Positions 16,525 through 22,143 of a stretch of DNA of 22,214 nucleotides are shown here, in pieces. A program made the translations under genes and the position numbers. The stretch is from a virus: positions 1-22,214 of the IMG/VR virus record IMGVR_UViG_3300046028_000298; one strand, written 5' to 3'. The first letter of the stretch is position 1, and each line of letters opens with the position of its first letter. The notes under the pieces are model-generated. The model was not told where the DNA came from and did not search any database. It saw nothing but the letters and a program-made list of their open reading frames with translations.

Positions 16525-16544
16525 AGCCACCACCGAGGGTGGCT
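16525..16544 (+). other. Stem-loop directly upstream of the first fibre's ribosome binding site
   Basis: AGCCACC at 16525-16531 pairs perfectly with GGTGGCT at 16538-16544 over a 6-nt loop. The T-run (16519-16524) is on the 5' side, so it is not a standard + strand terminator, and the minus strand reading gives an A-run after the stem, so not that either. It ends one base before CGGAGG, the fibre's ribosome binding site (16545-16550). It could shape the 5' end of a processed message or influence initiation. Confidence 0.5.
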
Positions 16545-16556
16545 CGGAGGTTATTT

Positions 16557-19337
16557 ATGGCTTTAATCCTTGCTGATCGAGTTAAGCAATCAACCACCAC
16601 TACTGGAACCAGTGATTTTGTCCTAAGCGGATCAGTCACTGGTTTTCAGACATTTGCGGCTGGTGTCGGTGCAAACAACACCACTTATTACTCAGTTGCG
16701 GATGGTGCTGATTGGGAGGTCGGTCTTGGCACATTGTCGAATGATGGTCTGACGCTTGCTCGGACAACTGTTTTACAGTCCAGCAATTCAGACGCTAAAG
16801 TTTTATTTGCGGCTGGCACAAAAGAAGTCTTTGTCACTTACCCTGCTGACAAAGCGGTTTCTGACATTACATCAACTGACGCAAGCATTGTTGTTTCTAG
16901 GAATGGAAGCATCATTGATTTAGCGGTTTCTGAAGCTTCACCAGCATCAACATTATTGGCGGCAGTTAGAAACACAACTGGCGCAACCTTAACCAAAGGC
17001 ACTGCTGTTTACATATCTGGTGCAACTGGTCAAAAATCAACAGTCTCAAAAGCGTTAGCAACAGGCGACTCAACATCTGCACAAACATTAGGTTTGATAA
17101 CCTCTGACTTGGCAAACAACTCAAATGGTTATGTTACTGTCATTGGCTTAGTAAGCAACATTAACACATCTGCTTATACAGATGGAGCGCAGTTATATTT
17201 AAGCCCAACAACGGCTGGGACATTGACTGCGACAAAGCCTTATGCACCAGATCATTTGGTTTATGTGGCTATTGTTGAGTACGCTCATGCAACTCAGGGC
17301 AAGTTGTTTGTCAAAGTGCAAAACGGCTATGAGATGGATGAGTTGCACAATGTCTCGGCACAGTCTCCCACCACTGGCCAAACCCTTGTCTATAACGCAA
17401 GCACAAGCCTATGGGAAAAGAACACAGTTTCTCTGACTGCTGGTGTCAATGGAACGCTGCCAGTCGCTAATGGTGGAACTGGCATCACATCATTGGGAAC
17501 TGGTGTTGCGACTTTTCTTGGAACTCCAAGTTCTGCCAACTTGCTGGCAGCAGTAAGTGACGAAACTGGCACTGGTGCTTTGGTATTTGCAAACACTCCG
17601 ACACTGGTCACTCCAATTCTAGGAACTCCGACAAGTGCAACTCTGACTAATGCGACAGGGCTTCCAATTGCAAGTGGTGTGTCTGGTCTTGGGACTGGAG
17701 TTGCAACTTTCTTGGCTACTCCAAGCAGTGCAAATCTGATTGCAGCTTTGACAGATGAGACTGGCACTGGCTCTGCTGTGTTTGCTAATAGTCCAACTCT
17801 GGTCACTCCCGCCCTTGGCACTCCATCTGCCTTGGTAGGCACAAACATCACAGGGACTGCTACTAACTTCACTGCAAGCAATGTCACGACAAATGCCAAT
17901 CTGACAGGAATGGTTACTTCTGTTGGCAACGCAACAACTGTTGTCACTAATGCAAATCTGACTGGTGCAATTACTTCAAGCGGAAATGCCACATCATTAG
18001 GCTCATTCACTTCTGCTCAACTGTTGGCGGCTTTGACGGATGAAACAGGAACTGGAGCAAATGTTTTTGCAACTTCACCAACTCTGGTGACACCAGCATT
18101 AGGAACACCCAGCGCATTGGTTGGAACTAACATCACAGGCACAGCAGCCAATTTCAACATCAACGGCACTGTCGGAGCAACAACACCCAGCACTGGCAAT
18201 TTCACAACCCTGACTGAAAATGGCGTTGCAGTAGTTACGCAATCCGACATTGGTAGCGCACCTAATGAAATTCCATTGAATCAGTATTTGGGTTCATTGG
18301 CTTACCAAAATGGTGATGCGTACTACAACACGGGCATGACTGTTGGATTCCGCAACCGAATCATCAATGGCGCAATGATGATTGACCAACGCAATGCGGG
18401 TTCGGCAATTACAACTTCTACGGGTTTTCCAGTTGATAGATTTAATTATTCTTTTGGTGGCGGTGCTTTTACTGCCCAAAGAATTAGTGACGCACCATCA
18501 GGATTTGTTAATTCTTTAAGAATTTCATGCACATCAACTTCAAGTGCAGATGTAGGATTTGAAACAAAATTTGAAGGTAACAATATTTTTGATATTGGTT
18601 TTGGTACTGCAAATGCTTCACTTATGACGCTAAGTTTTTGGGTCAAATCTAATTTAACAGGACAATTTAGCGCATTTTTATACAGACCTGATGCAAATCG
18701 TTCATGTGTTTTAGGCTACACAATAAATGTGGCAAACACTTGGGAGTACAAAACGATTTTGATTCCCGCTGATTCAACTGGTGCAGTTACCGCAACAAAT
18801 GGTGAAGGTTTACGACTTGATTTTTTCCTTGCTTTATCTTCAGCAACAGGAAGCCCAAGTGTTTGGAAATCGTTAGATTCACAACGGGGAATAACTGGTC
18901 AAGTAAATTTAGGTTCATCTGCTTCAAATACTTGGCAAATCACAGGCGTTCAACTAGAAAAAGGCAACATAGCAACATCGTTTGATGTGCGACCTTTTGG
19001 GACTGAGTTGGCTTTGTGCCAACGGTATTGTCAAACAGTTAGCACAGCAACTAGCAGTAGTATTGTTGGTGTATCAAGTGATTCAAATATTTATAGTTAT
19101 GGTTTGATACAACCAATGAGAGCAAGCCCATCATTCTCAGGTAATTTAGCGGTGATGCAATATTACTTTGCTTCTGTTGGCGCGGCAATTTCATATCAAA
19201 CACTTAGTTATTCTGCACTTGGTTTTGGTAGTGGTGTTAATCAAATTCGTTTTGTTACATCATTAGCGGGCGGTAAAGGGCTTGCAAGTTGGATTGATGC
19301 TAATTCAGGTTTATTAGTTATAAGCGCAGAGTTATAA
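16557..19337 (+). CDS. Tail fibre with LGTP-type repeats and a variable C-terminal domain
   Basis: A 926-residue fibre in three parts. Residues 1-105 ([21 protein letters not shown], then a [21 protein letters not shown] segment) resemble the N-terminal virion-attachment part of many phage fibres. Residues about 313-533 are tandem repeats built on DETGTG..VFA.(T/S)PTLVTP.LGTP, typical of shaft regions in aquatic phages. Residues about 598-926 start [19 protein letters not shown], a widespread phage C-terminal cassette with a beta-rich, carbohydrate-binding-like body ([27 protein letters not shown]), then [10 protein letters not shown]. Two starts are in frame, GTG at 16539 and ATG at 16557; the ATG is chosen because GGAGG at 16546-16550 is 6 nt ahead of it. 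It probably recognises a surface glycan or protein; the ligand is unknown. Confidence 0.88.
17494..18155 (+). repeat. Degenerate in-frame repeats in the fibre shaft
   Basis: Three related units are visible at about 17494-17645, 17691-17870 and 18006-18155. Each holds the protein core DETGTG, VFA and PTLVTP, and LGTP, the last two also sharing [17 protein letters not shown]. Between the second and third lie two shorter copies ([16 protein letters not shown] and [16 protein letters not shown], about 17890-18006). The copies differ at many synonymous sites, so they are old or selected duplications rather than recent slippage. Confidence 0.85.
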
Positions 19338-19338
19338 A

Positions 19339-19512
19339 ATGATTACATACAAATTAACTTTAGACCCAATCACAAATCTTGATGGAAAAATGATTTATCG
19401 TTCGGATGGATTGTGGCTACCAAAAGACCCCGCCAACACCGACTACCAAGCCTACCTAAAATGGCTTGCTGAAGGCAATACACCCGAACCCGCAGATGGA
19501 GAACAAGCATGA
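19339..19512 (+). CDS. Small fibre-associated protein (57 aa) with [17 protein letters not shown] motif
   Basis: A short gene one base after the fibre stop. The 57 residues start [20 protein letters not shown] and include [20 protein letters not shown], then [13 protein letters not shown]. The DPAN(T/S)DYQAYLxWLAxGNTP pattern is widespread at the ends of phage tail fibres and in small proteins next to them, so this is almost certainly a real gene despite its size. It could be a fibre-tip or assembly helper. No clear ribosome binding site is seen, but coupling with the fibre stop is plausible. It ends 31 nt before the preferred start of the endonuclease. Confidence 0.78.
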
Positions 19513-19543
19513 GCATCCAATCAAACTTTCCCAATCTGAAACC

Positions 19544-20359
19544 ATGAACGCTGAACGCTTTTACGTCTACGAACACATCCGTAAAGATACGGGTGCGGTG
19601 TTCTATGTCGGTAAAGGTTCAGGAAAGCGATGCAAGCACTTTGTTAATCGTGGCAAGTTTTGGAACAACTTTTGCAAATCAAAAGACAACGTAGAAGTTA
19701 GATTGCCCATTAAAAATGTTGATGAAGAATTTTCATTACTAGCAGAAGTTGAACTGATTGATTTGTATCGTAGGCGTGGCGTTAGGCTTGTCAACATTTC
19801 CGATGGCGGTGAAGGTACAAGCGGTTGGATTCCATCACAGGAAACACGACAAAGAATTGGTGAAGCAAACAAGCACACGCCAAAGGCTAGTGGCGAAAAG
19901 CATGGGATGTTTGGCAAAAAACATACTGCTGAATCTTTGGAAAAAATGTCGGCTTCGCAAAATAAGCGTGACTATACAAATCATCCAATGCTAGGCAAAC
20001 ACCACACCAATGAAGCCAAAGCAAAGGTTTCACTTGCAAGAAAAGGTAAGTGTGTTGGTAAAGACAATCCCTTTTATGGCAAAACGCATAGTCCTGAAGT
20101 ATTAGAAAAAATGCGGTCGGTTCATATTGGTAGAAAAGCAAGTGAGCAAACAAGAAAAAATATGTCAATTGCGGCATTAGCAAGCGCACCAACAAATAAA
20201 TTATCTAAGCCAGTTTTATGCCTTACAAATGGCGTGAAATACTATGGGTTAAATGACGCATCAAAACAGTTAAATTTGCATCGTCAAACAATTAGAATGG
20301 TTTGCAACGGCAAGTTAACGCAAACTGGCGGTTATAAATTTGAATGGGGAACAAAATGA
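19544..20359 (+). CDS. Free-standing GIY-YIG homing endonuclease with NUMOD3 motifs
   Basis: A selfish endonuclease gene that cuts alleles lacking it and spreads by repair. Residues 6-30 are the GIY-YIG nuclease start (FYVYEHIRKDTGAVFYVGKG, with YVY and YVG standing for GIY and YIG and Arg29 in KRCKHF as likely catalytic), and Glu68 or Glu70 in AEVELIDLYRRRG is the probable metal ligand. Residues about 117-210 contain repeated NUMOD3 DNA-binding motifs (GMFGKKHTAES, HPMLGKHHTNEA, NPFYGKTHSPE, and a degenerate one around HIGRKASEQTR). The end (SKPVLCLTNGVKYYGLNDAS and after) is NUMOD1/helix-turn-helix-like. ATG at 19544 is preferred because the domain begins right there; in-frame ATG at 19496 and TTG at 19466 exist. 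The stop overlaps the next fibre start (ATGA), an unusually tight integration. Confidence 0.9.
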   Translation: MNAERFYVYEHIRKDTGAVFYVGKGSGKRCKHFVNRGKFWNNFCKSKDNVEVRLPIKNVDEEFSLLAEVELIDLYRRRGVRLVNISDGGEGTSGWIPSQETRQRIGEANKHTPKASGEKHGMFGKKHTAESLEKMSASQNKRDYTNHPMLGKHHTNEAKAKVSLARKGKCVGKDNPFYGKTHSPEVLEKMRSVHIGRKASEQTRKNMSIAALASAPTNKLSKPVLCLTNGVKYYGLNDASKQLNLHRQTIRMVCNGKLTQTGGYKFEWGTK

Positions 20360-22143
20360 GTATTTCACAAAACTTTGGAAACGTATCGCCAAGCCTTTTA
20401 CTTGACTTTGCTAACACCAAGCAATTAGATAACCGCATTACTTTTACTAGGTCAACCCCTGCGGTTTACTACGATGGTAAAACTACTGCGATGGCAGAAC
20501 AGAATTTGTTGTTGTACTCGCAAGAATTTGACAATGCGGCTTGGTCTAAAGTTAACAGTACAGTTACGGCAAACAGTACCGTAGCACCCGATGGGACTTC
20601 AACCGCTGACACACTTACGCCTAACACTACAAATGGATTTCATTACTGCCATCTTAACGGCCCTGCTATTTCTAATAATGTTCAGACACATTCAATTTAT
20701 GTAAAAGCAAATGGCAATACAAAAGTTGGTTTGCGTGAAGGTGCATATAGTGGGGCAAGTGCAACTTTTAATTTAACAACTGTTGCCGTTATAAGTCAAA
20801 ATAATGCCGCCGCTATAGTGTCAAACTCTGCTATTACTAGTGTCGGAAACGGTTGGTACAGAATTTCAACTACTTATACGGGCGCAGGGGTTTCACGATT
20901 AGAACTTTGGGTTTTGCCCGACTCTTACACTTCGGGCGATGTTACTAGTTTTTCTTGGGCGGGTAATGGAACATCCGGTGTGTTTTTATGGGGGGCGCAA
21001 GTTCAAGCCAGTAGCACTTTAATAGCATACACCGCAACAACAACGCAAACGATAACAAACTACATCCCCGTTCTACTAAGTGCGGGTGGTAATCAAGCAA
21101 GGTTTGATTGCAACCCTACTACTGGTGAATCGTTGGGATTGTTGATTGAGGAACAGAGAACAAATCTTGCACTTTATTCTGAAGATTTTTCTTATTACTC
21201 GGGTTCAAGTTCTATTACTGTTAATCAAGGCATTGCACCAAATGGAACTCAAACTGCTGATTTAGTTACTGGAACTAGCGACATATATCAAACATTGGTT
21301 GGAAGTTCTAGTGGAACTTATGCTTTAAGTATGTATGTTCGCAGTATTACTGCGCCTTATTTCATGTTGTCATTTGGATACCCAAGTATTCAAAGAGTTG
21401 TGTTTAATCTTTCCAATGGTTCAGTAAGTTCAACTGTTGGCACTAATATAACTGGTAGTTCTATTAGTGTTGGTAATAATTGGTATAGATTAACTATTGT
21501 TGGAATATCTCAAGGAAGTATTTTATACAATCAATTTAATGCCTATGCCAGTACAACTTATAACGACAAAACAACTGGTGCTTTAATTTGGGGAGCACAA
21601 TTAGAACAGGGTGCATTTCCAACTTCATACATTGCAACAACTTCAGCAAGTGCTACAAGAACGGCAGATGTGGCACAAATTACGGGAAGTAATTTTAGTA
21701 GTTGGTTTAATGCAAGTGAAGGCTCAGTTTATTATGAACTAAACACTTCTCGCATAACTACTGATTCTTTTAGTTTTAATTTTGATAATGGGACATCTTC
21801 TTCTGATCCAAATTTTATATATTCATCACCTGTTTCTTCTAGAAATTTATTTGTAAGTTCACTCGGTTCTACGCAAGTTAATTTAGGGGCTGGTGTAACT
21901 GTATCAAGTAATACTTTTTTTAAAACAGCATTAGGATACAAGAACAATGATTTTGGAGTTTCTGTTAACGGAAGCGTTACGGCAACTGACACAATAGGAG
22001 TAGTTCCTTTAGGACTTGCTAGATTGGTTCTTGGAACTGCATATGACCTTTCAAATGCCAACTACATAAATGGATGCATTCGTAAATTTACTTATTACCC
22101 AATAAAAGTAACTTCAACAAACTTGCAAGCCCTAACTTCATAA
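20356..22143 (+). CDS. Second tail fibre/adhesin with two tandem carbohydrate-binding-like modules and lectin-like C-terminus
   Basis: A 595-residue adhesin. The N-terminus (SPSLLLDFANTKQLDNRITF, then TRSTPAVYYDGKT) and the GESLGLLIEEQRTNLALYSE segment (about 258-275) are hallmarks of a common phage adhesin family. Two similar beta-sandwich modules follow one another: about 48-235 (NLLLYSQEFDNAAW ... GNGWYRIS ... FLWGAQVQ) and about 266-430 (NLALYSEDF ... VGNNWYRLT ... LIWGAQLEQG). The last ~150 residues (SSWFNASEGSVYYEL ... GYKNNDFGVSVNGS ... NYINGCIRKFTYYP) look like a laminin-G/concanavalin-type domain. ATG at 20356 overlaps the endonuclease stop and has GGGGA at 20346-20350, 5 nt ahead. 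A capsule- or polysaccharide-binding role is inferred. The DNA is clearly A/T-rich compared with the tail genes. Confidence 0.85.
   Translation: MSISQNFGNVSPSLLLDFANTKQLDNRITFTRSTPAVYYDGKTTAMAEQNLLLYSQEFDNAAWSKVNSTVTANSTVAPDGTSTADTLTPNTTNGFHYCHLNGPAISNNVQTHSIYVKANGNTKVGLREGAYSGASATFNLTTVAVISQNNAAAIVSNSAITSVGNGWYRISTTYTGAGVSRLELWVLPDSYTSGDVTSFSWAGNGTSGVFLWGAQVQASSTLIAYTATTTQTITNYIPVLLSAGGNQARFDCNPTTGESLGLLIEEQRTNLALYSEDFSYYSGSSSITVNQGIAPNGTQTADLVTGTSDIYQTLVGSSSGTYALSMYVRSITAPYFMLSFGYPSIQRVVFNLSNGSVSSTVGTNITGSSISVGNNWYRLTIVGISQGSILYNQFNAYASTTYNDKTTGALIWGAQLEQGAFPTSYIATTSASATRTADVAQITGSNFSSWFNASEGSVYYELNTSRITTDSFSFNFDNGTSSSDPNFIYSSPVSSRNLFVSSLGSTQVNLGAGVTVSSNTFFKTALGYKNNDFGVSVNGSVTATDTIGVVPLGLARLVLGTAYDLSNANYINGCIRKFTYYPIKVTSTNLQALTS

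Follow-up and report, generated by a model that had tools for sequence, protein, structure and literature searches.

How does a homing endonuclease gene come to lie in a row of overlapping phage tail genes, and what does it do to the adhesin gene that follows it? Homing genes are generally held to enter coding sequences safely only with a splicing partner, and otherwise to sit between genes or to split them. The window analysed here is a whole virus record of 22,214 bases (IMG/VR record IMGVR_UViG_3300046028_000298), in which such an enzyme meets the start codon of an adhesin. We compared this locus with enzyme-free and enzyme-bearing relatives and with similar arrangements in other phages.

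The adhesin locus and its enzyme

All features of the locus are on the plus strand. The long tail fibre gene (16539-19337; PHROG 4492 tail fiber, E 5.1e-43), whose C-terminal part is a variable module, lies upstream of the enzyme and is followed by a small open reading frame (ORF) of 57 amino acids (19339-19512), which matches PHROG 20370, a family of unknown function (E 1.4e-11). The enzyme gene (19544-20359; 271 amino acids) comes next, and then the adhesin or tail protein gene (20356-22143; 595 amino acids; PHROG 5939 tail protein, E 8.6e-98), whose product begins MSISQNFGNVSPSLLLDFAN. The original prediction described a GIY-YIG/NUMOD3 enzyme between the small ORF and the adhesin, with the stop codon of the enzyme overlapping the adhesin start and the adhesin ribosome-binding site inside the enzyme gene. 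These elements are all present: the enzyme TGA (20357-20359) overlaps the adhesin ATG (20356-20358), and GGGGA (20346-20350; −5.5 kcal/mol) lies within the enzyme 3′ end. The span first assigned to the feature (19339-20359) takes in the small ORF as well.

Two side observations concern the neighbouring genes. The small ORF family is very common in phages, with at least 558 confirmed relatives, and its 3′-terminal bases (GAAGGCAATACACCCGAACCCGC) are nearly identical DNA across otherwise different phages, as if the end of this ORF were a recombination seam. Within the adhesin, the block 21005-21191 has 88% DNA identity to L084, while the two adhesins are about 46% identical overall; this block looks like a second seam for module exchange.

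Although the predicted feature is real, the prediction missed a second adhesin start, which alters the meaning of the locus. Translation and alignments identify 19509-19547, just 5′ of the enzyme, as the stranded 5′ end of the same adhesin gene, 12 codons long and closed by TGA. The old ribosome-binding site GGAGAA (19498-19503; −6.4 kcal/mol to the anti-Shine-Dalgarno sequence) is still in front of it, and the same or nearly the same site was found in 11 of 11 enzyme-free alleles of relatives checked (−5.9 kcal/mol in L181). Three ATGA overlaps follow in succession, at 19509-19512, 19544-19547, and 20356-20359. Because the stranded codons are the adhesin’s own, the enzyme sits within a coding sequence and is not intergenic; the break in the adhesin follows codon 12, a CCA within a conserved stretch.

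The enzyme contains three NUMOD3 stretches (Pfam, E 7.8e-19) and an I-HmuI-NUMOD-like C-terminus (E 2.3e-6), and it matches PHROG 314 ‘homing endonuclease’ (E 3.9e-29). The GIY-YIG model PF01541 gave no Pfam match in the window enzyme, whereas it does match the enzyme of L128. An AlphaFold model of the enzyme was of low confidence (pLDDT 64), and its top PDB matches include I-HmuI, the UvrC GIY-YIG domain, and the I-TevI catalytic domain, at E-values of 1e-3 to 0.08. Residues R29, E70, and N84, which we take to be the equivalents of the I-TevI catalytic residues, are all present, and E70 and N84 are invariant across seven aligned sequences. The enzyme thus has the fold, by matches of weak E-value, and the motif with Arg, Glu, and Asn that define a GIY-YIG homing endonuclease. 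Loss of the catalytic Arg or Glu, named beforehand as grounds for giving up the prediction, has not occurred.

Enzyme-free relatives and the two adhesin starts

We scanned viral_contigs with a pattern for the junction, to which alleles lacking the old start are invisible, and obtained 16 records, or 17 with the window. Twelve are enzyme-free (L176 to L183, L185, L188, L190, and L191), four carry the window-type GIY-YIG enzyme (the window, L187, L184, and L189), and one (L186) carries an unrelated NUMOD4-HNH enzyme. L176 and L188 have the same sequence over the compared part, and L191 stops soon after the adhesin start. L187, also labelled L086, shares 5,504 identical bases with the window and breaks off within the enzyme gene. 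L184 and L189 are nearly identical to each other, and their enzyme is 91% identical to that of the window. The four GIY-YIG-bearing records span two allele backgrounds with the same insertion base. Presence/absence polymorphism at one site is expected of a homing endonuclease, and a locus occupied in every relative, the other outcome named as fatal to the prediction, is not what the 12 enzyme-free records of 17 display. In the enzyme-free relatives, the small ORF passes via ATGA directly into the adhesin, and the adhesin ATG is exactly 87 nt from a downstream block in all 10 records that hold this block.

Comparison with these alleles, proposed in the original prediction for locating the insertion boundaries, defined an inserted segment of 847 bp (19545-20391). 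On its left side, the stranded end of the window is identical to enzyme-free L176 at 35 of 36 nt, and that of L184 is identical to enzyme-free L178 and L182, which represent another allele, at 36 of 36 nt; in the third case, the match of the stranded end to enzyme-free relatives is 46 of 48 nt. Two recipient alleles (NLKP and AIAP) join the element at the same base, after CCA. A flank that moved together with the element would be the same in both, so the left flank is the recipient’s each time. Phage homing genes are often found between genes (Table 1 of PMC2988022, in the part available), which would suit an ordinary free-standing intergenic gene with the 12-codon remnant as a chance upstream ORF. 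However, this remnant is the near-perfect match to the functional adhesin starts of relatives just described, and we rejected the intergenic reading, which is hardly credible given that identity and the junction alignment.

On the right side, the adhesin restarts with 12 supplied codons, MSISQNFGNVSP (20356-20391). These 36 nt are identical between the window and L184, and in the window they reach at most 67% nucleotide identity to any of 53 other unique alleles; the best identities over nt 1-36 of the supplied ends are 67, 69, and 78%. Downstream, the best related allele matches at 90-92% over nt 37-84 and at 97-98% over nt 85-150, and adhesins with supplied ends are 94-98% identical to relatives at nt 85-150. 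A foreign stretch of 36 nt after which identity to relatives is regained therefore sets the insert at 19545-20391, consisting of the enzyme and a foreign 12-codon start. From this supplied start, the adhesin reading frame (20356-22143) is full-length again.

The supplied copy differs from the copy it replaces at about 40% of bases. Elsewhere in viral_contigs, the MSISQNFGN end occurs only beside this enzyme, and a degenerate pattern used to seek the source of the supplied end matched just two enzyme-bearing contigs and no donor adhesin. Of 78 codons compared between the stranded and the supplied ends, 54 differ synonymously (P 0.47 against random codon choice); this is the random level, so nothing points to selection for divergence over and above ordinary saturation. 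The supplied ends may simply come from a distant adhesin.

We consider it probable that the insert is a homing cassette that breaks a gene end, brings a divergent copy to replace it, and needs no intron or intein. In such a cassette, the enzyme would recognise the conserved adhesin 5′ end and cut enzyme-free alleles during co-infection. Break repair would then copy the 847-bp cassette into the cut allele, including the spare start, that is, the divergent adhesin codons 1-12 with their ribosome-binding site and ATG. The old 12 codons would remain ahead of the enzyme as a mini-cistron and pass ribosomes to it by ATGA, the enzyme would hand them by a further ATGA to the restored adhesin, and the spare start would keep the invaded gene working. 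With about 40% of its bases different, the supplied copy should neither restore the recognition site nor recombine with the stranded copy in a way that would remove the cassette. Cleavage of the enzyme-free 5′ end, spread by repair, resistance of the supplied copy, and coupled translation are thus predictions from the sequences.

Local duplication with drift, in which the 5′ end was doubled at the insertion of the enzyme, with later divergence of the downstream copy, would account for old and new ends that are alike in protein, as in L186, where 13 of 16 residues are alike and many synonymous changes separate the two. Against this, the new end of the window is identical to that of L184 at all 36 nt although the enzymes differ by 9%, so the new end is not fast-evolving, and the divergence, which is saturated, ends sharply at codon 12-28. 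We regard duplication as improbable. The window and L184 enzymes differ with dN 0.059 and dS 0.225; their last 201 nt are identical, and nt 511-612 (window 20054-20155) match at 69 of 102 positions. By dN/dS and this patchy identity, the enzyme appears to be kept functional by purifying selection and to be itself mosaic. The divergent stretch at 20054-20155 is directly 3′ of the NUMOD3 repeats and lies in what is probably the DNA-binding part.

The translation signals are compatible with the proposed handover. The enzyme ATG lacks a Shine-Dalgarno sequence (+0.4 kcal/mol in the window, +1.9 in L184, and +0.7 in L384), and the supplied adhesin starts have one (−5.5 to −6.5 kcal/mol); these energies are suggestive only, as random 20-nt stretches reach such values at about the 5% level. 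Translation of the enzyme appears to rely on ribosomes that load at the old adhesin start and then move on to the new one. The insert copies the ATGA arrangement of the enzyme-free alleles. It had been claimed that the adhesin depends on the enzyme, and the present adhesin start codon and ribosome-binding site do lie in the enzyme 3′ end. The dependence is not new, however, because the enzyme-free adhesin couples by ATGA to the small ORF (19339-19512) in the same way.

The original prediction also held that the enzyme may drive exchange of the adhesin. In nearly all pairs, whether or not the enzyme is present, the adhesin bodies have about 40-57% identity; the exceptions are one enzyme-free pair at 69% and one identical pair. 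For example, enzyme-free L177 and L178 are 94% identical over 1,458 nt upstream and 46% identical in the adhesin. The exchange claim was not borne out by these comparisons, and we rejected the enzyme as a driver of adhesin diversity; judged from the sequences, it is not needed to account for that diversity. The location of the adhesin start and ribosome site inside the enzyme gene would suit an enzyme kept as a regulator or exchange driver, but in relatives that lack the enzyme the adhesins are just as diverse and are coupled to the small ORF in the same way, which leaves this reading very unlikely.

Recurrence of the arrangement at other loci

The arrangement recurs with a second enzyme family in L186, which is the same contig as L008 and L192. 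Its NUMOD4-HNH enzyme follows adhesin nt 50 (codon 16/17) and is read as a fusion to the adhesin’s own start, after which come ATGA and the supplied start MSVQSNYPNLRPSLLLDFANTRQ. L384, a 4.5-kb contig binned with a Saccharibacteria genome, looks like phage judged by its genes. It holds a GIY-YIG enzyme 66% identical to that of the window and fused to MTISANYPSVIPSLS, followed by ATGA and MTISANFSNVRPSLLLDFANEQ; L383, from the same bin, is enzyme-free. The HNH case of L186 and the L384 case are a single contig each. At least three further fibre genes have GIY-YIG enzymes in this arrangement (L137, L114, and L128). In L114, the stranded end MSNARELAELGGSYGTGGFVGMKNRII, the enzyme, and a supplied start follow one another, and the enzyme-free allele L106 matches the stranded end at 72 of 84 nt and the supplied start at 40 of 75. 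Among the sequences in hand, no enzyme-free allele was found for L137, L128, or L216, and no Pfam family was reported for the L137 enzyme. In all repeat cases, the overlap between the enzyme stop and the new start is 4 or 10 nt long.

On the reverse strand of L216 (4789-5379), MSFLGGPPNQA is stranded and MSFLGNPPSQAR is new; the HNH enzyme that they flank is encoded on the other strand. This locus may be an example in which enzyme and gene run in opposite directions.

These repeats bear on two other explanations. The locus could be what remains of a tandem pair, adhesin 1, enzyme, and adhesin 2, with adhesin 1 deleted down to 12 codons and the new start being adhesin 2’s own. L305 does have tandem adhesins with similar starts, and since the adhesin body differs in nearly all pairs, a whole foreign adhesin 2 is possible. 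However, the left junction falls at the same base in two allele backgrounds, 90-98% identity to single-adhesin relatives is regained after codon 12-28, and the architecture is repeated with a second enzyme family and at conserved motifs of other fibre genes. No locus with two full adhesins around the enzyme was seen. We therefore consider remains of a tandem pair unlikely, if less so than duplication.

A self-splicing intron or an intein that rejoins the old start to the adhesin would likewise place an insert inside coding sequence with related sequence on both flanks. Of the 847 inserted bases, however, only the last 32 lie outside the enzyme, which is followed by another start that has an ATG and ribosome site of its own; in L186 and L384, the old start and the enzyme form one continuous reading frame. 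An Rfam search of 19200-20700 gave no match at E up to 1, and a Pfam search of the enzyme found no intein family. We rejected an intron or intein on these searches and find either one barely conceivable here.

We screened for further examples of the homing cassette with its replacement gene end. The focused screen took 119 enzyme frames, with both flanks in 83, and one contig may recur in it. The best 15 rows were all cases described here and the next score was 29; the shuffled-pair null, which includes same-target pairs, had its 95% level at 22 and its 99% level at 39, with scores of at least 36 in 12 of 817. Of 75 loci screened earlier, the other one with a high score was a tandem enzyme pair (L228:4998-5818), two NUMOD4-type enzymes with similar starts. 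The general screen gave 25 pairs outside the tandem-like class, and 10 were inspected. Among its pairs, L008, L384, and L001 (the window) were already known cases and L228 was the tandem enzyme pair; L258, L127 at 9664, L109, L101, L100, and L124 were rejected as neighbouring genes with similar starts and not enzyme insertions. Eleven pairs lay outside the inspection (L089 twice, L113 twice, L127 at 7217, the second L258, L349, L169, L207, L369, and L019).

The architecture was absent from 16 of 16 named-phage enzyme loci checked. When sets of 399 and 379 genomes were searched for additional copies of the enzyme, only the distant L389 and the known L384 contig were found, and the L389 contig begins just 5′ of the distant enzyme relative.

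Some loci have features at the 3′ end of genes. In L271:4558-5510 and L256:4132-5159, a NUMOD4-HNH-like enzyme ends with KDERLS and a stop; the adjacent upstream gene has the same last six residues, encoded by different codons at 5 of the 6 positions. This suggests a mirror image in phages, with a supplied 3′ gene end. In L091:4972-5761 (and L092), the C-terminus of an upstream methyltransferase-like protein resembles a stranded C-terminus 3′ of the enzyme (score 44, where the 99% level of the null is 20), a possible second 3′-end case. Separately, a GIY-YIG gene with a spacer on either side divides the annotated large terminase of L396 and L399 (Enterococcus phages VD13 and Entf1) in two, which perhaps marks an unrecognised intron.

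Relation to known homing systems

The closest likeness is to the mobile ORFs (mORFs) of fungal mitochondria, described for Glomus atp6, atp9, cox2, and nad3 and Allomyces atp6, which replace the 3′ end of a gene with a foreign one and leave the native end stranded (PMC3630166); Phlebia atp6 and cox2 provide a further example (PMC4019555). In the portion of the mORF account available, the native stranded end has 91-98% nucleotide identity to close relatives, compared with 64-81% for the inserted copy (PMC3630166). As here, an endonuclease ORF lies inside a gene together with a diverged copy of the gene end, and the native end is stranded and matches relatives (PMC3630166). However, the mORFs replace the 3′ end and are mitochondrial, whereas the phage cassettes replace the 5′ end, with start codon and ribosome site. 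The mORF enzymes are described as mostly LAGLIDADG, with GIY-YIG in atp9 (PMC3630166), and, as far as that account extends, the phage cassettes differ in being free-standing and in having their parts joined by stop-start overlaps.

Tremella mitochondrial introns with an ‘N-terminal duplication’ of the host gene (PMC7315562; also PMC8393795) are likewise mobile elements with a partial host-gene copy, and they have been proposed to swap gene fragments between species (PMC7315562). Those elements are introns, unlike the phage cassettes, and the duplicated piece resembles the following exon and in several cases is located in or after the transcript; the available part of the account describes no free-standing enzyme with a new start codon (PMC7315562).

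The T4 Seg and Mob enzymes share the GIY-YIG and HNH families, phage hosts, and lack of an intron, and mobE in Aeh1 nrdA is likewise coupled by an overlapping stop and start (PMC2988022). In the part of that review available (PMC2988022), T4 enzymes either occupy intergenic positions or divide a gene into two functional parts, whereas here the gene is restored whole. The window enzyme thus resembles T4-type free-standing enzymes in lying outside an intron or intein and departs from them in not lying between genes. The out-of-frame HNH insertion in the methylase of phage ShiLan is also a homing insertion in coding sequence for which no splicing element was found, but its host gene is read through the insertion, and no replacement gene end appears in the available description (PMC11855218).

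We found no case of a supplied gene start in a phage in the open-licence PubMed Central literature as far as it was accessible, which does not prove absence. Relative to these systems, what seems new is an mORF-like replacement of a gene end that takes place at the 5′ end, in phages, with a free-standing and stop-start-coupled enzyme.

There is a parallel to engineered gene drives, which carry a recoded rescue copy according to the available text (PMC9240394). There may be a general phage class of such ‘cut and rescue’ homing elements, in which GIY-YIG and HNH enzymes independently carry cleavage-resistant gene ends, mostly 5′ and sometimes 3′, slot into stop-start coupling, and favour receptor-binding genes; we give this generalisation an even chance. 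The cassette reading makes precise predictions of the target, of the resistant product, and of the outcome of recombination. For homing genes, it would add a further route of invasion, with clear before-and-after alleles, two enzyme families, and several genes.
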